From Thermoplasmata archaeon (GTDB lineage: Archaea > Thermoplasmatota > Thermoplasmata > Thermoplasmatales > Thermoplasmataceae), in assembly GCA_021833045.1 (NCBI GenBank), contig JAKBGP010000156.1, positions 1 to 5,492 on the forward strand: a stretch of DNA of 5,492 nucleotides, in the 5' to 3' direction. The notes beneath the pieces were generated by a model. The model was not told where the DNA came from. It made no database searches and saw nothing but the letters and a program-made list of their open reading frames with translations. Of the stretch, positions 1-5,492 are shown piece after piece. The first letter of the stretch is position 1. Each line of letters starts with the position of its first letter. The translations under genes were made by a program, and so were the position numbers.

Positions 1-1725
1 GAAGATGTCAAACGTCCTCTCTTGATATTTTGAACCTTCTCTTTCTTCTCTTGAAAGATACACCTTTTTCAATATGATTCTCAAGGTGTTTGCATAGGCA
101 AATGAATTCATTTCCTCACTCTGATCAATTCCTCCATTCCATACAGGAATCTTTCTGTCATTACCCCTTGCTAATAATGATACTATAAGGGCCGTCAAAA
201 ATATGAATAGAATATCAAAAGTGGGTGACAGAAACCCAAAGAATCCCACATGAGCTGGAGAATACAGTAGAAATGGGTATATTATTCCTTTCAGACTGGA
301 TAGAAAGATCGTTTGTGTTCCAATTCCAACAAATGTTCCAATAAATTTTGAATACATATAAACATAGGCTGGTGCTATAACTGTAAGAGAGAGTATTATA
401 GTTCCTGAAATCTTCAGTGGAGTTCCTATTCTATGACCAATTTCACTATTGTCATTCTTTCTTGTTGTAAATCCAAAATATTTTGTAAAGGTAGGAATTG
501 TTATACCTGCACCCAGTGCAGCCATTGATCCAGAGATTATTGCAACAACTGCAAATATTAAATTTGATGAAATAGATGAAATAAAGAGAGATTCAAGAAG
601 AAGCCATTCGCCTATACCCCCACCGAGAGGGGCCAGTCCCATGAGGGATATCACTGATACTGCTGCTCCAACTCTTGCATATGGTGTAAGACCATTTCCT
701 CTCATAGTAGGAAGATTATTATTGTCTGAGATGCTTGAAAGTATGAACACTGAAGCTTTAGCCCATGCGTGGGCCGTGGCATAGATAAATATCCCCAGCA
801 TAATGAATGATGCCATTACGGGGTCATTCATTCCCTTCCAGACAATGAGAAGACCTACAAGAATGATCATTGCTCCTGAATTTTCCACTGTGCTGTATGC
901 CGGTAACATCTTACTGTTCTCAGAAGATAACGCAAAAATTGAACCGAAAAGCAGAGAGAATGAACCTATCACCATAAGGATCAAACCCAAAACAAAGTTT
1001 GATGAAGATGTGAGAACAAATTCAACTATACCGTAAAGTGCCAGAGTTGTCATTGCAGCACTAAACAGTATTGAACCAGGAGTAGGGGAATTTCCATGGG
1101 CAATTGGAAGCCACTCGACCATCTGTAATGGAACTATACCCATTTTGAAAGTAAATCCCAGAATAATTATTAGAAGAATATATGGATTTGTAAGGGCTGC
1201 ACCAAGTAATAAACTGCCAGTTGATACATAATAACCTGCAAATCCCAAAATAAGGAATACTGTGCTGAGTTCTCCAAATGAAATGAAAACAAAGGGGGGA
1301 TATGATTTAGTTTCTTTCTTAAACCCAATCATTAGATAACCACTTATGGTCATGGATTCCCAAAACATCAGAAATAGAACGATATTGTCAGAAATGAGAA
1401 CTGAATTTATGGATGCTATGGTAAGACCCACAAAGAATGCGAGCTTTCTATCCTGAGGCATATAGAATAGAGAGAATACAAAAACAAGAAATTCTACGAC
1501 TGAGATTATAAGTAGAAAGGCTACGTTAGGTCCCTGCAACATTATGCTGAAGTTACCTATTATCAGAGTTCCTGTTGTGAGATATCCAATCATAGAAATA
1601 ATGGCAATTGCAGAATTCAGCAATGTAAAGAAAATGCCGAAATAATATGATCGTCTGGCCGAAAAAAGTGATATAGGGAGTGAAAGAAACGGTAGTACAA
1701 AAAGAAATAGAAGAAGATAGATCAT
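1..1725 (-). CDS. hyfB: HyfB/NuoL-like proton-translocating membrane subunit, 3' end off window
   Basis: This frame is open for 575 codons from an ATG at 1725 to the window edge, so the C-terminus is missing; E. coli HyfB is about 670 residues. The protein is almost wholly hydrophobic with many membrane helices and belongs to the Mrp/NuoL/NuoM antiporter family (proton-conducting membrane transporter). Landmarks read from the translation are WE at 122-123 (the helix 5 glutamate), K194 followed by a WLPIAH stretch at 205-210 (the helix 7 lysine region), SK at 271-272 before AYSTVEN, HAWAK with K323, and GEW with E373 (the helix 12 glutamate typical of HyfB). A PVWNGG motif near 527-532 and a YANTLR motif near 544-549 are also HyfB-like. 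The start is supported by an upstream GAGGGGG and by the ATGA overlap with the small-subunit gene. One oddity is Thr227 where relatives usually have a helix 8 lysine. Its role is inferred: ion translocation at the distal end of the membrane arm. Confidence 0.9.
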   Translation of the reverse strand, partial: MIYLLLFLFVLPFLSLPISLFSARRSYYFGIFFTLLNSAIAIISMIGYLTTGTLIIGNFSIMLQGPNVAFLLIISVVEFLVFVFSLFYMPQDRKLAFFVGLTIASINSVLISDNIVLFLMFWESMTISGYLMIGFKKETKSYPPFVFISFGELSTVFLILGFAGYYVSTGSLLLGAALTNPYILLIIILGFTFKMGIVPLQMVEWLPIAHGNSPTPGSILFSAAMTTLALYGIVEFVLTSSSNFVLGLILMVIGSFSLLFGSIFALSSENSKMLPAYSTVENSGAMIILVGLLIVWKGMNDPVMASFIMLGIFIYATAHAWAKASVFILSSISDNNNLPTMRGNGLTPYARVGAAVSVISLMGLAPLGGGIGEWLLLESLFISSISSNLIFAVVAIISGSMAALGAGITIPTFTKYFGFTTRKNDNSEIGHRIGTPLKISGTIILSLTVIAPAYVYMYSKFIGTFVGIGTQTIFLSSLKGIIYPFLLYSPAHVGFFGFLSPTFDILFIFLTALIVSLLARGNDRKIPVWNGGIDQSEEMNSFAYANTLRIILKKVYLSREEREGSKYQERTFDIF

Positions 1726-2351
1726 TTACGCCCCCTCACTTTTTCCAGCGCTTCAATTATAACGAAAGGATCGGGAGGACAACCTCCAATGATTAGGTCA
1801 GGATCTAAAAGAGATTCAAGATCTTTTCCGAATATATTCCCAGATAGAGCACATGCACCAAAAAGTATTACAACCGCAGGCTTTGACATTGCACCAATAG
1901 CTGCTCTGATCACAGGAATCATCTTTTCGCTGAAGACCCCCATTATTACAAGCGCATCTGCCTGTTTTGGGGTATTGGTGAAGAAAATGCCAAGCCTGGA
2001 AACATCGTAATAGGGATTATTAATAGAATGAAGTTCCGTATTGCATGAGCCACATGTTCCTGAATCTATTGGAAATATCTTAAATGATCTACTTAAGGCT
2101 CTTTCTTTTCTCTTTAATTCATAATTATCTGTCCTCAGAGATGGTTCGAATGAAGTTACACACAGACCACAGGAAATGCATTTTCGCATATCTACGCCTT
2201 TTTTATCTATGGCATCCGCAGGGCAGAAAACCTCTTCATCTCCTCTCCTTACCGGGATTGTACTCCATGGTGATATGGTCTCGTTTTTCTTTGCTGGAAA
2301 CTTTGTGGTTATGATACCCTTTCTTATAGAATCAACAGGCCAAATCTTCAC
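1722..2351 (-). CDS. hyfI: Small subunit: reduced ferredoxin domain fused to NuoB/HyfI-like Fe-S domain
   Basis: The 209-residue protein carries electrons in the peripheral arm. Residues 1-80 resemble the N-terminal part of HyfH/NuoI ferredoxin subunits (a GIITTKFP stretch, then an RRGDEE stretch). They hold C43-P and C58-x2-C61-x2-C64, enough for one [4Fe-4S] cluster. The first CxxCxxC motif is absent and the last cysteine of the second motif is replaced by F68. Residues 95-205 are the NuoB/HyfI domain with C100-x2-C103, C167 and C191-P, the four ligands of the proximal (N2-type) cluster; the NPYYDVSRLGI stretch is also typical. Separate HyfH (about 180 residues) and HyfI (about 250) proteins are the usual arrangement, so this is a compact fusion in the same H-then-I order. 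The start is GTG at 2351, overlapping the large-subunit stop as GTGA, with GGTGAT upstream. It ends in an ATGA overlap with the next gene. There is no twin-arginine signal, so it should act on the cytoplasmic side. Confidence 0.9.
   Translation of the reverse strand: MKIWPVDSIRKGIITTKFPAKKNETISPWSTIPVRRGDEEVFCPADAIDKKGVDMRKCISCGLCVTSFEPSLRTDNYELKRKERALSRSFKIFPIDSGTCGSCNTELHSINNPYYDVSRLGIFFTNTPKQADALVIMGVFSEKMIPVIRAAIGAMSKPAVVILFGACALSGNIFGKDLESLLDPDLIIGGCPPDPFVIIEALEKVRGRK
1731..1737 (-). promoter_or_regulatory. Shine-Dalgarno-like site for the HyfB-like gene
   Basis: On the minus strand this reads GAGGGGG, with 5 bases between it and the ATG at 1725. It lies in the last codons of the small-subunit gene. 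It is less perfect than the HyfF site, but spacing and purine content fit. Confidence 0.55.
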
Positions 2352-3547
2352 TCAATATCACCCATTTCACTTAACCATATGCCGAAGCTTTCAAATGCAA
2401 AGGGTATGTCTGTTTTCACATTTCCCTTTATTCCCAGTGCAAACGCTTCCATGTTGAGCAGAGAAGGAGTTCGAACGTATAGTTTACCAATTTTTTCATT
2501 TTCCACATCTAACACAACCCTTGCATCTCCAGATGGTGTCTCGATACCGCTGGAACTCAATGCATCATATGGCTCACCTTTAAAATCTTCAAACTTCCTT
2601 GAGACTGCATCTTCAATTAGCTGAAGGGAAGAAAATACTTCAGCTAAGAATACAAGAAAGCGGGACAATGAGTCTCCTCCATCCTCTGTTACGGGTTTAA
2701 AATTTGACTCCTTATAGTATGGATCAAACGATCTGTAGTCATAGGAAATACCTGCTGCCCTGAGAACAGGCCCTCTCTGGAATTTTTCTTCTATTTTACA
2801 TGTGTTTTCAATCCTGTCTATGAATATTCTTGAAACTGTCAGCCCATCAATTATCCTCCTATATTCAGAAACAACTTCTTTTGCAGTATCTACAATTTTC
2901 GTGACATTTATTTTTCTTCCTATCCCACCTATCCTGTTCACTCCGAACATGTACCTGTGACCTGTTTCCGTAGCCACTGCTCTCATCATTCTTTCCCTCA
3001 GCGCAAGCAGCCAGTACGAAGCTATATTTTGTGATGCCGCCTCACACAGCCTTGCAGTTTTAAAAATGTGAGAAATTATTCTCTCTATCTCCAGCAGAAT
3101 CAGTCTTATTTTTACTGTTTCACCGGTAACAACAAGATCTAATTTCCTTTCAATCTCCCTTGCCAAAAGTGTGCTGTATGAAAAGCTGTGAAAACCATTA
3201 AATCTCTCCATCATTAACAGTCCCCTTTCAAACGAAGATCCTGAAAATTTCATTACTCTCTTCTTAAAATCTGGAATCACATCCAGTGAAAGGATTCTTT
3301 CACCGTAGGTATAAATCTTGAAATCTACTGTTTCGACCATCCCTCCAGTACTCGGACCATAATTGAATGGAAATACATTTTCTCCGGTTACTCTGTGATG
3401 GTATATTCCTCTTAGGGGATCGTAAATTCTTAAATTCTGAATTTCCTTTAAGTGTGATTCTTCCACCTTCTCAGAATCATCTTTAATAACGTAATATATT
3501 CCTTCCCTTTCAAAAAAACCAGTTACATTTTCTGTGTCCGGAATCAT
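2348..3547 (-). CDS. hyfG: Ehr-type catalytic-like large subunit (HyfG/NuoD family) without NiFe ligands
   Basis: The 399-residue protein belongs to the NiFe hydrogenase large subunit / NuoD family. Family landmarks in order are YGPSTGG at 63-69, GER at 82-84, MERF at 113-116, EIERIISHIF at 153-162, TGHRYMFGVNRIGG at 195-208, RAAGISYDYR at 263-272 and VRTPSLLNM at 358-366. Both metal-binding motifs are lost. ERxCGxC is ERFNGFH at 114-120 (Cys to N117 and H120), and the C-terminal DPCxxC is LSEMGD at 392-397 (Cys to E394 and D397). The only cysteines are C168 and C250. It therefore cannot bind a NiFe centre in the usual way, which matches Ehr complexes described in the literature. The roughly 60 residues before the GPSTGG motif are too short for the full NuoC-like domain fused to E. 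coli HyfG (571 residues). The ATG at 3547 has GGGAGG upstream and overlaps the preceding gene. The electron acceptor is unknown. Confidence 0.92.
   Translation of the reverse strand: MIPDTENVTGFFEREGIYYVIKDDSEKVEESHLKEIQNLRIYDPLRGIYHHRVTGENVFPFNYGPSTGGMVETVDFKIYTYGERILSLDVIPDFKKRVMKFSGSSFERGLLMMERFNGFHSFSYSTLLAREIERKLDLVVTGETVKIRLILLEIERIISHIFKTARLCEAASQNIASYWLLALRERMMRAVATETGHRYMFGVNRIGGIGRKINVTKIVDTAKEVVSEYRRIIDGLTVSRIFIDRIENTCKIEEKFQRGPVLRAAGISYDYRSFDPYYKESNFKPVTEDGGDSLSRFLVFLAEVFSSLQLIEDAVSRKFEDFKGEPYDALSSSGIETPSGDARVVLDVENEKIGKLYVRTPSLLNMEAFALGIKGNVKTDIPFAFESFGIWLSEMGDIE
2357..2362 (-). promoter_or_regulatory. Shine-Dalgarno site deciding the GTG start of the small subunit
   Basis: On the minus strand this reads GGTGAT, with 5 bases between it and the GTG at 2351. 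It matches the 3' half of GGAGGTGAT, the full archaeal consensus complement of the 16S end. It supports the GTG, which sits in a GTGA overlap with the large-subunit stop. Confidence 0.6.
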
Positions 3548-4899
3548 AAGAAACCTCCCAAATATACAAAAATTATGGAAAAAGCAAAGAGTACAGACAA
3601 TCCTGCAACGTACTTTTGAGTTCTTTCCAACTGGATTACTTCCTGCCCATCTGCATTGCCATCAAAAATCATTACTGAAACTTTCTGTATAAGTGATATA
3701 GAAATGATAAACAGACATATCACAATAATGATTACAGCAGCAATGGTTCCATTGTTGATCAACTGGTAAATGATCAAAAATTCTCCTAAAAAAGTAGTAA
3801 ATGGTGGTGCACCAGTAACTATGAGCGAGGACGCCAGCAAGGACATTGAAGTCGATGGCATCCTGTTCCTCAATCCTCTAATTTCATCAATCTTTTTTGT
3901 ACCAAAACCCTTCAGAATATTCCCAGAGGAAAAGAATGCACCAGATTTACCAAATGCATGGGTGAGAATGATGAAGAGAGCTCCCACAAGGGCAAGACCA
4001 CCTGTGATCAGGCCAAGGGTTATGAGGGCCATATTCTCCATTGTTGAATAGGCAAACATTCTCTTTATATTTCTCTGTGAGGGCATTATAAGGGCAACGA
4101 AAACAAGAGTTGCGAGGATGAATATAAGAAAGATTTCTTCAAGGCGTGGCGTGTATGTGGCAAGAAAGAATCTGTATAATACATATGCTGCAACAGGCAG
4201 GAGAATTCCTGAAAACATAGCACTGATCTCAGATGGGGCTTCTCCATGTGCGTCAGGAAGCCATGTGTGCATTGGGAATATTCCAATCTTTGTTCCAAAT
4301 CCAACCAGAGCAGTAGCACCTGCAATTGTGAGAATAAAGGAAGGAGAGTGTCCGGCTTCTATAATGGCAACAGAGTTCAGCGTGTGATAATTTAGATATA
4401 TGAGTATCACTGAAATTAATGCGAGTGTAAGGCCAGTAGATACAATCAAAACATATCTCCATGCTGCCTCTATCTCAGTTTTCTGCCTTTCTATTATTAG
4501 CAGTAAGGCGCTTGATGCCGTTGTTGCCTCTATTCCAATCCACATCAATCCAAAATCGTTTATGACCAGAGTGAAAAGCATTGTGAAAACAAACAAATGC
4601 ATCAATGAATAGTGCAGCTTCAGATTTCTTGACTCTTTTATTTTACTGTGATAGGTAGACGCAAAGAATATAGATAGGGTATATACAAGCGATACTGAAA
4701 TAACAAGAATCCTGTTCACAGAATTTATGTTAAAATGTGAATATACGCCCATTGGAATTGATAGCACCGCAAATGAAACAATGACTTCTATGACACTTCC
4801 TATCTTTCCAATCAACTGGGAACGATTACTAAAGTATGAAAAGGATAGAACTACCGGTATAATCAGCAAAATATAGATGAGTAAAGTATCCAAGTTCAT
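3544..4899 (-). CDS. hyfF: HyfF/NuoN-like proton-translocating membrane subunit
   Basis: This complete 451-residue polytopic membrane protein of the NuoL/M/N-Mrp antiporter family has about 13-14 predicted helices. E124 (in the stretch WIGIEATTASS) is the helix 5 glutamate. K204 (GTKIGIFPMHTW) is the helix 7 lysine, followed by WLPDAHGEAPS at 213-223. K279 precedes AYSTMEN, K318 lies in THAFGKSG, and E373 lies in LGEF, the helix 12 glutamate. P235 sits where NuoM has a helix 8 lysine; as far as I recall, HyfF proteins also lack lysine there. Length and motif order fit HyfF better than NuoN, as does its position between a HyfE-like and a HyfG-like gene. The ATG at 4899 overlaps the upstream TGA as ATGA and has a strong GGAGGAG 8 bases before it. 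Its own TGA overlaps the large-subunit ATG. Its role is inferred: an ion channel of the membrane arm driven by redox change in the peripheral subunits. Confidence 0.92.
   Translation of the reverse strand: MNLDTLLIYILLIIPVVLSFSYFSNRSQLIGKIGSVIEVIVSFAVLSIPMGVYSHFNINSVNRILVISVSLVYTLSIFFASTYHSKIKESRNLKLHYSLMHLFVFTMLFTLVINDFGLMWIGIEATTASSALLLIIERQKTEIEAAWRYVLIVSTGLTLALISVILIYLNYHTLNSVAIIEAGHSPSFILTIAGATALVGFGTKIGIFPMHTWLPDAHGEAPSEISAMFSGILLPVAAYVLYRFFLATYTPRLEEIFLIFILATLVFVALIMPSQRNIKRMFAYSTMENMALITLGLITGGLALVGALFIILTHAFGKSGAFFSSGNILKGFGTKKIDEIRGLRNRMPSTSMSLLASSLIVTGAPPFTTFLGEFLIIYQLINNGTIAAVIIIVICLFIISISLIQKVSVMIFDGNADGQEVIQLERTQKYVAGLSVLFAFSIIFVYLGGFL
3554..3559 (-). promoter_or_regulatory. Shine-Dalgarno site for the large-subunit gene
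   Basis: On the minus strand this reads GGGAGG, with 6 bases between it and the ATG at 3547. It lies within the last codons of the HyfF-like gene. It supports the ATG that overlaps the previous stop as the true start. Confidence 0.75.
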
Positions 4900-5492
4900 C
4901 CTATCAACTCCTCCATCTTTTCAGAAGTGTGATCCCCTGTCAGTAATACGGCTGCAACAATAACCAGAGCTAAAACATCCAGAAGTACACTTATCTCAAC
5001 AATAAGTGGCAAGGGGAATATGCCAAGACTCAACAGAATCATTGCATTCTCCTCTTCAATATATCCGGTGAACTGTGTTATCTTGTTCTTTCTTGTTCCT
5101 ATAAGCAGAAGTCCCTGTATAGCTATTACAAAACCAATTGCTGTAATGGGACTTGGGGCAAACTGAAATATTGTGAGTCTATAAATTATCAGGGTTGAAA
5201 TTAGAACAATGATGCTTACTATGATTATTGAGGGAACTGTTGTGGACTTTTCTCTTATTAATTCCCTCCTTACAGGGAACTTTTTTATTAGTATATAGGC
5301 TGTAAGAATTCCCCTTATGAAAATTATGAGGAAGGCCAGAAGTATCAAATCATAATTTACTGTGTATAGACCACTGATAAAGGCATATATGGCAAGAAGT
5401 GTAGTCTGTATAACTATTACCTGAATCTTTGTTATCACATAGCTACCTATTTGAGCCCAAATTGCCACGAAAAGCATCAATGTCGCTATAAA
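4896..5492 (-). CDS. hyfE: HyfE-like (NuoK-related) membrane subunit, 5' end probably off window
   Basis: The frame stays open to the right edge. The first ATG inside the window is at 5477 (a TTG lies just before it at 5480), but neither has a convincing Shine-Dalgarno sequence and hydrophobic codons continue upstream (F-I-A-T-L). The true start is probably a few codons outside. About 198 residues are visible against roughly 215 for HyfE. Numbering from 5480, there are six or seven membrane helices. The C-terminal half has the NuoK-like signature of the family: GYIEEEN at 139-145, PLIVE ending at E162, then LLDVL at 166-170. The central basic segment KKFPVRREL at 66-74 separates the two helix bundles. 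R56 sits where HyfE proteins often have a lysine. The gene ends in TGA inside an ATGA overlap with the HyfF-like gene. Its expected place is the membrane arm between the NuoH-like heel and the antiporter subunits. Confidence 0.85.
   Translation of the reverse strand, partial: FIATLMLFVAIWAQIGSYVITKIQVIVIQTTLLAIYAFISGLYTVNYDLILLAFLIIFIRGILTAYILIKKFPVRRELIREKSTTVPSIIIVSIIVLISTLIIYRLTIFQFAPSPITAIGFVIAIQGLLLIGTRKNKITQFTGYIEEENAMILLSLGIFPLPLIVEISVLLDVLALVIVAAVLLTGDHTSEKMEELIG
4908..4914 (-). promoter_or_regulatory. Shine-Dalgarno site for the HyfF-like gene
   Basis: On the minus strand this reads GGAGGAG, with 8 bases between it and the ATG at 4899. It lies inside the end of the HyfE-like gene. 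It is a near-perfect match to the prokaryotic anti-Shine-Dalgarno sequence and fixes the start of the HyfF-like frame. Confidence 0.75.

Follow-up and report, generated by a model that had tools for sequence, protein, structure and literature searches.

Asn, His, Trp, and Glu at the nickel ligand positions in the large subunit of a predicted Ehr complex from a Thermoplasmata archaeon

The window analyzed here, a stretch of 5,492 nucleotides of DNA from a Thermoplasmata archaeon, a member of a largely acidophilic group, is filled by five minus-strand genes that form one operon in the order HyfE-F-G-I-B (Table 1). The HyfE gene has no Pfam or NCBIfam match of its own and was named from its place in the operon and from 57 homologous open reading frames (ORFs), 56 of which are 201 to 219 aa long. 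The common gene order in related loci is HyfC-E-F-G-I-B, and 67 of 80 such loci yielded a HyfC-type ORF; two Metallosphaera loci and L069 have HyfE after HyfB. The complex would thus comprise six genes, with HyfC sitting just outside the window, before HyfE, as in most related loci. Simple gene calling gave a HyfG ORF in 77 of the 80 loci and none in L058, L069, and L075, which are for this reason missing from the tree described below.

Table 1. Genes and residues of the predicted Ehr operon in the window (clade, the 108-row clade of the large-subunit tree)
Feature	Position	Strand	Observation
HyfE membrane subunit	4896..5492	-	Open at right window end; in-frame TTG at 5480
HyfF antiporter-like subunit	3544..4899	-	PF00361, E 2.2e-47
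HyfG large (catalytic-type) subunit, HyfG/HycE/NuoD-like, 399 aa, no NiFe ligands	2348..3547	-	PF00346, E 1.2e-23
HyfI small subunit, HyfI/NuoB-like, with fused N-terminal one-cluster ferredoxin stub	1722..2351	-	PF01058, E 1.2e-17
HyfB antiporter-like subunit, running past left window end	1..1725	-	PF00361, E 1.8e-26
HyfG, first former NiFe motif, E114-R-F-N117-G-F-H120-S121	3185..3208	-	GAG AGA TTT AAT GGT TTT CAC AGC
HyfG N117 (AAT), at first Ni cysteine (Mbh C68)	3197..3199	-	N in 104/108 clade rows
HyfG H120 (CAC), at second cysteine (Mbh C71)	3188..3190	-	H in 92/108 clade rows
HyfG W391 (TGG), at third cysteine (Mbh C374)	2375..2377	-	W in 95/108
HyfG E394 (GAA), at fourth cysteine (Mbh C377)	2366..2368	-	E in 107/108, one gap
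HyfG E72 (GAA), aligned to Mbh proton relay Glu21	3332..3334	-	E in 108/108 clade rows, 126/131 archaeal rows
HyfG H197 of GHRY motif	2957..2959	-	H in 108/108 clade rows
HyfI ferredoxin-stub cysteines C43, C58, C61, C64	2160..2225	-	Each C in 63/65 HyfI rows, gap in 2
HyfI proximal (N2-type) cluster C100, C103, C167, C191	1779..2054	-	C in 64-65 of 65 rows

The genes that recur beside the operon in the closest relatives of the window look, by eye and from their first residues, like those for S17e, Usp, DnaJ, DnaK, and GrpE; none is a redox partner, and they were set aside as partners of the complex. The Usp-like ORF (138 to 162 aa, likewise recognized by eye) lies convergent to HyfB in 15 loci (L001 to L005, L010, L045, L047 to L049, L055, L060, L064, L065, and L072), the titles of which include Thermoplasmata and Nitrososphaerota, with its nearer end from 3 bases inside to 36 bases past the end of HyfB; in L075, by contrast, a related ORF is upstream. 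Multiple Ehr loci, two or three per assembly, occur in seven assemblies (L003/L016, L004/L017, L006/L057, L008/L075, L011/L021, L013/L022, and L045/L047/L072), and five of six multilocus assemblies searched with PF00346 also have a canonical-type NuoD (G003, G004, G006, G007, and G010, not G024). Of the two copies in E-plasma, that in L013 is whole and the HyfG gene of L022 is split into ORFs of 280 and 89 aa, through decay or an assembly error. The Ehr operon of L037 comes from a contig whose title reads Micrarchaeota; its HyfI is without the ferredoxin-stub cysteines, its HyfG groups with a Thermoplasmatales row, and misbinning is possible.

The PDB matches of the HyfG large subunit are HycE, Mbh, and NdhH, and its AF2 model (pLDDT of 92.7) finds its best structural match in 7z0s_E. 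The Ni ligands of Mbh are Cys68, Cys71, Cys374, and Cys377 (PMC11228991; papers cited here are for the most part drawn on in extract). In a profile alignment with the Mbh large subunit of known structure (6cfw_L), which reads ERMCGICSFSH at the first motif, N117 falls under the first cysteine and H120 under the second, and Escherichia coli HycE and HyfG (DRVCGICGFA) give a matching alignment. Together with the codons, these alignments confirm the original prediction that the first NiFe motif has been erased, CGxC having become N-G-F-H. The second motif, which that prediction overlooked, is gone too: the C-terminal DPCYSC of HycE corresponds to GIWLSE in the window protein, so that W391 and E394 replace the third and fourth cysteines. 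All four cysteine ligands of group 4 [NiFe] hydrogenases, which form two CxxC pairs, are thus replaced, and no other CxxC pair was found at ligand positions in the window protein; it is accordingly predicted to have no NiFe site and, as was first supposed, to hold no nickel in the known way. A sequencing error is unlikely because the full N-H-W-E quartet recurs in 87 of the 108 clade rows and because the database protein P0001, 99% identical to the window protein, has identical site residues, these being read from P0001 itself, which represents a cluster of 89 sequences found on 11 contigs, and not from each member.

By a published definition (PMC4378227), the large subunit of an Ehr complex resembles that of group 4 hydrogenases but has neither the N-terminal nor the C-terminal Ni motif. 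The window operon combines such a subunit with Hyf/Nuo-like membrane and antiporter-like subunits, and on this gene content the cluster is predicted to be an Ehr complex, which bears out its original placement among the Ehr-type complexes. The core finding is not new, such Thermoplasmatales proteins having been known from 2013 to lack both motifs: Yelton et al. described putative group 4 hydrogenases without both Ni-binding motifs in A-, E-, and G-plasma and two Ferroplasma, “possibly indicating some other function” (PMC3750248). These acid mine drainage clusters resemble the window in gene order, in being of the Hyc type, and in the loss of both motifs, and two of their organisms recur among our related loci, E-plasma (L013 and L022) and Ferroplasma acidarmanus (L032). 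The replacing residues, the E72 relay, the absence of hypD, and the co-occurrence pattern reported below were not found in the extracts of that paper. The Ehr complexes of Sulfobacillus (PMC4378227), ammonia-oxidizing archaea (PMC10432482), and comammox Nitrospira (PMC10284858) are likewise group 4-like and lack the CxxC motifs, and the extracts of these three papers give their function as unknown. The 11 rows of the Nitrososphaerota group in our tree differ from the clade of the window in having no N-H-W-E quartet.

Among better-characterized relatives, E. coli formate hydrogenlyase and hydrogenase 4 (HycE and HyfG) share with the window the Hyf-type gene set and the structural match 7z0s_E, whereas the window operon is without the Ni ligands, HyfA, HyfD, formate dehydrogenase (FDH), and the HycI, HycH, and HyfJ genes, and the HyfH ferredoxin of E. 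coli is represented in it by a stub fused to HyfI. Pyrococcus Mbh (6cfw) has in common with the window the fold, the glutamate Glu21/E72, and the antiporter-like subunits but retains C68, C71, C374, and C377 and makes H2. Mbh and the window complex are also alike in their iron-sulfur entry, which in Mbh is fed by ferredoxin (PMC11228991).

A homologue search gave 72 proteins, and a tree of 156 rows was built by a quick method (SH-aLRT support only), leaving out P0001, which is nearly identical to the window protein, and HyfG pieces of <340 aa (two each from L022 and L060 and that from L077). The window protein is nested in groups of 21, 67, 108, and 131 rows (support of 100, 95, 98, and 100, respectively), which join it with Thermoplasmatota, Sulfolobales, and Nitrososphaerota rows; the tree contains no source-labeled Ehr sequence. 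The HycE, Mbh, and Nuo rows fall together, apart from the archaeal Ehr rows, in a topology whose root serves for drawing only, whose deepest forks are weak, and in which long branches meet.

Within the 108-row clade, which mixes database and locus proteins and in which some rows are one gene twice, Cys takes the place of N117 in the four remaining rows and Phe (six rows), Tyr (five), and Leu (five) take that of H120. Such conservation suggests that the N117/H120 pattern is more than chance. The residues are conserved well but not extremely: by entropy, N117 ranks 47th, W391 64th, and H120 75th among 335 clade columns. H120 is thus a feature of the clade without being universal, and it was rejected as indispensable, since Tyr is found in P0002, the nearest relative (81% identical), and Phe in four Sulfolobales rows, L037, and P0055. 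The quartet occurs in none of the 23 outer archaeal rows (including Nitrososphaerota and Thermococcus), which show A/C/V/T, F/L, S/N/T, and D at these positions; the 11 rows of the Nitrososphaerota group among them read A, F, S/N/T, and D or alike. A compensatory exchange linking positions 120 and 391, suggested by seven rows with L or Y at 120 and H or Q at 391, found support in one of five independent pairs (P = 1) and was rejected. One subclade (L015, L023, L024, and L071) reads ERYCGPLS, with the first cysteine present, Leu at the second, and H or Q at the W391 position, and may be an intermediate or a reversal.

Two further residues of the large subunit, E72 and H197, are kept more strictly in this clade than N117, H120, and W391. 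Beyond the clade, H197 is found in 127 of 131 archaeal Ehr rows, 12 of 25 other rows, and none of 27 NuoD rows; the position of E394 is occupied by Glu in all 27 NuoD rows as well. Glu21 of Mbh, the counterpart of E72, has a role in the proton relay of that enzyme and is held to occupy the place of His38, the proton donor of Nqo4, and the NiFe site is held to have become the Q site of complex I (PMC11228991). In the window protein, the positions of His38 and Tyr87 (Nqo4 numbering) are V71/E72 and G118, respectively. Since the Tyr87 position is thus a glycine and there is no His in the His38 loop, the site does not simply reproduce that of complex I. Among NuoD rows from the same genomes, this His and this Tyr are each present in 23 of 27, so that some NuoD proteins are also without them; the canonical-type NuoD of L083, L094, L097, and L107 (Sulfolobales and Nitrosopumilaceae) reads GPQHPGS-GH and ERPAILDS or ERPVIHDS, without the His and Tyr otherwise found there, so that even the main complex I departs from the norm at its quinone site. 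The window complex differs further from respiratory complex I (NuoD/Nqo4) in having no NADH module in its operon and in the hydrogenase-type CxxC of its proximal cluster. A whole-protein kinship with complex I, read at first from the H-S-F motif, was set aside, though not as disproved, on match scores and the tree. The original interpretation is supported in part.

The ferredoxin stub of HyfI follows the pattern CP...CxxCxxC, and its four cysteines are enough for one [4Fe-4S] cluster. In NuoB, the N2 cluster is bound by tandem cysteines; in the window HyfI, C100 and C103 instead form a CxxC with the spacing of hydrogenases, E. coli HycG and HyfI reading CGGCNxCE. The antiporter-like subunits retain a set of charged and histidine residues that we take to be those of proton pumping, namely, E123, K194, H319, K323, and E378 of HyfB (in 71 to 72 of 72 rows) and E124, E144, K204, H314, K318, and E373 of HyfF (in 74 to 75 of 75 rows).

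To place the operon in its genomic context, we used 29 genomes picked for spread from the 80 Ehr loci, together with a class sample of 150 genomes from the class of F. acidarmanus, their identity across the four class searches being taken from matching handles. In the 29 locus genomes, hypD was not found in 26, including the complete record of F. acidarmanus (L032), and was present in Sulfolobales archaeon Acd1 and two Metallosphaera; of 14 known genomes used as a control, 4 gave a match, including E. coli. Thirty genomes of the class sample have Ehr, counted as an A2 match at E ≤1e-70, a cut set once the gap from 2.8e-72 to 1.6e-60 had been noticed. As raw counts uncorrected for kinship, hypD occurs in 3 of these 30 genomes (G042, G081, and G092) versus 86 of the 120 others, heme-copper oxidase in 25 versus 20, and MqnA/D menaquinone genes in 15 versus 5; one of the COX1 genomes, G076, is below the family cutoff. 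At a cut of 1e-100, the corresponding figures are 1/21 versus 88/129 for hypD, 19/21 versus 26/129 for COX1, and 13/21 versus 7/129 for Mqn. These associations could reflect a single group of archaea, and each absence is weak singly because genome completeness is not given. H120 and E394, both well conserved, could ligate a metal, which would leave room for a working hydrogenase whose metal site is unusual or of another kind; against the loss of all four Cys ligands in the window protein, the end of this protein near the second motif, past which HycE continues, and the scarcity of hypD in the locus genomes, we consider such an enzyme the most improbable of the explanations weighed here.

No dedicated donor gene recurs around the Ehr operons in the related loci surveyed. 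Some relatives are annotated as formate hydrogenlyase, an FDH-Ehr complex has been proposed in other phyla (PMC6349859), and a molybdopterin oxidoreductase is encoded in 14 of the 29 locus genomes, away from the Ehr operon, all of which would accord with electrons coming from FDH. Yet no FDH recurs in the surroundings of the operon, and no PF00384 protein was found in the other 15 genomes, which include all 10 of G001 to G010, a set holding six loci of the 21-row group of the window (L001 to L005 and L010) and four more loci from wider relatives (L006, L008, L012, and L013). Furthermore, Gplasma has the complex without FDH and Iplasma FDH without the complex (PMC3750248, Table 1), and in the extracts of the Cuniculiplasma genome paper, FDH is not verified (PMC5155288). 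A formate hydrogenlyase-like function is therefore highly improbable, and for the clade of the window we rejected FDH as a partner on the operon surroundings and genome searches. A ferredoxin:NAD(P)+ oxidoreductase, as once proposed for Mbx (cited in PMC6349859), is very unlikely, given that a NuoF-type flavin protein is encoded in none of the operons and was not found in 22 of the 29 genomes, G001 to G010 among them; the seven genomes that have one carry it away from the Ehr operon. In the genome of L015 (G011, contig C35), the genes for a molybdopterin oxidoreductase and a NuoF-type protein are some 22 to 29 kb away from that for the Ehr large subunit. Formate and NADH are thus unlikely donors near the window, and with neither molybdopterin oxidoreductase nor NuoF found in the near relatives searched, ferredoxin is left as the donor by elimination.

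As for the acceptor, the view that the NiFe site became the Q site, the correspondence of Glu21 with His38, and the oxidase and MqnA/D counts point to quinone as the most likely candidate. Genes of the MqnA/D route were found in 22 of the 29 locus genomes; they were not found in the other 7 or in 15 of the 30 Ehr genomes of the class sample, and these carriers count against quinone, as do the lost Tyr87 equivalent and the Ehr-like relatives in Thermococcus (P0050 and P0056 by name and P0057 to P0059, which group with them). To our knowledge, Thermococcus lacks quinones, and quinone therefore cannot serve every Ehr. The same Thermococcus rows lend some weight to the alternative that the pocket acts on a different small molecule, for example polysulfide, which is listed among the substrates of the Q-like cavities of the superfamily (PMC10212512). 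The structure 6u8y_L, which we take to be MbxL of Mbx (MBS), presumably a nonhydrogenase member of the superfamily, matches the window protein as a single sequence with E 1.6e-11 (residues 146 to 315) and the group profile with E 2.9e-25 and 92 bits (125 to 354), level with Nqo4. The Pyrococcus MBS (Mbx) complex is held to reduce polysulfide. Both matches lie outside the motif, the profile match beginning at position 125, past it, so that the site itself is not part of the comparison, and Ehr goes with heme-copper oxidase in the class sample; reduction of polysulfide or the like thus appears distinctly unlikely.

On the basis of these observations, we propose that the complex is a proton-pumping ferredoxin:quinone oxidoreductase, a reading to which we give an even chance and in which both donor and acceptor are deduced from gene content and sequence. 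Reduced ferredoxin would dock at the ferredoxin stub of HyfI, and electrons would pass through the two [4Fe-4S] clusters of this subunit to the former NiFe pocket. There, instead of hydrogen being made, a quinone head group would be reduced with protons from E72 and perhaps H120, and this reduction would drive proton pumping by HyfB and HyfF. In effect, the complex would be a shortened complex I that needs no NADH and operates alongside the canonical Nuo complex, a canonical-type NuoD (PF00346, E ≤1e-58) being present in 27 of the 29 locus genomes (G024 has no match, and G026 has a partial one at 9.9e-41). Many Nitrososphaerota and Metallosphaera are autotrophs. Their presence among the carriers, together with the conserved pump residues and the ferredoxin stub, would also suit the reverse direction, in which the large proton gradient of an acidophile drives electrons from quinol to ferredoxin and so provides electrons of low potential for biosynthesis. 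Cuniculiplasma divulgatum, akin to the clade of the window, has ferredoxin-dependent 2-oxoacid enzymes, among them 2-oxoglutarate synthases, and a quinone-based chain (PMC5155288); these enzymes would call for a sink of ferredoxin electrons and not a source, and we hold the reverse direction to be unlikely.

As far as the open-license literature searched can tell, what is new here is the residue quartet, the kept glutamate, the distribution of hypD and oxidase genes, and the lack of FDH and NuoF. No description of the N-H-W-E quartet was found in the extracts of that literature; those of PMC7285479 and PMC9287336 have nothing on the complex, and the Cuniculiplasma genome paper describes a Nuo without NuoE, F, and G and has in its main text no word beginning with “hydrogenase” (PMC5155288). 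Some proteins of the kind found in the window are filed as formate hydrogenlyase or hydrogenase, a point of naming on which these findings bear.

Bioenergetics has yet to explain how the NiFe site passed into the quinone site of complex I, and the clade of the window offers small operons in which the metal ligands have given way to four largely conserved residues while the hydrogenase-type glutamate, the proximal cluster, and the pumps stay. We tentatively raise the possibility, somewhat doubtful as yet, that N-H-W-E marks a third type of active site built on the NiFe/quinone scaffold, in which a hydrogenase pocket was converted directly into a site for quinone or another organic acceptor, independently of complex I and with the glutamate relay kept. 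If this is true, aerobic acidophilic archaea would run two or three pumps of the complex I type, one of them fed by ferredoxin, and this ferredoxin-fed pump could also reverse in steep proton gradients.
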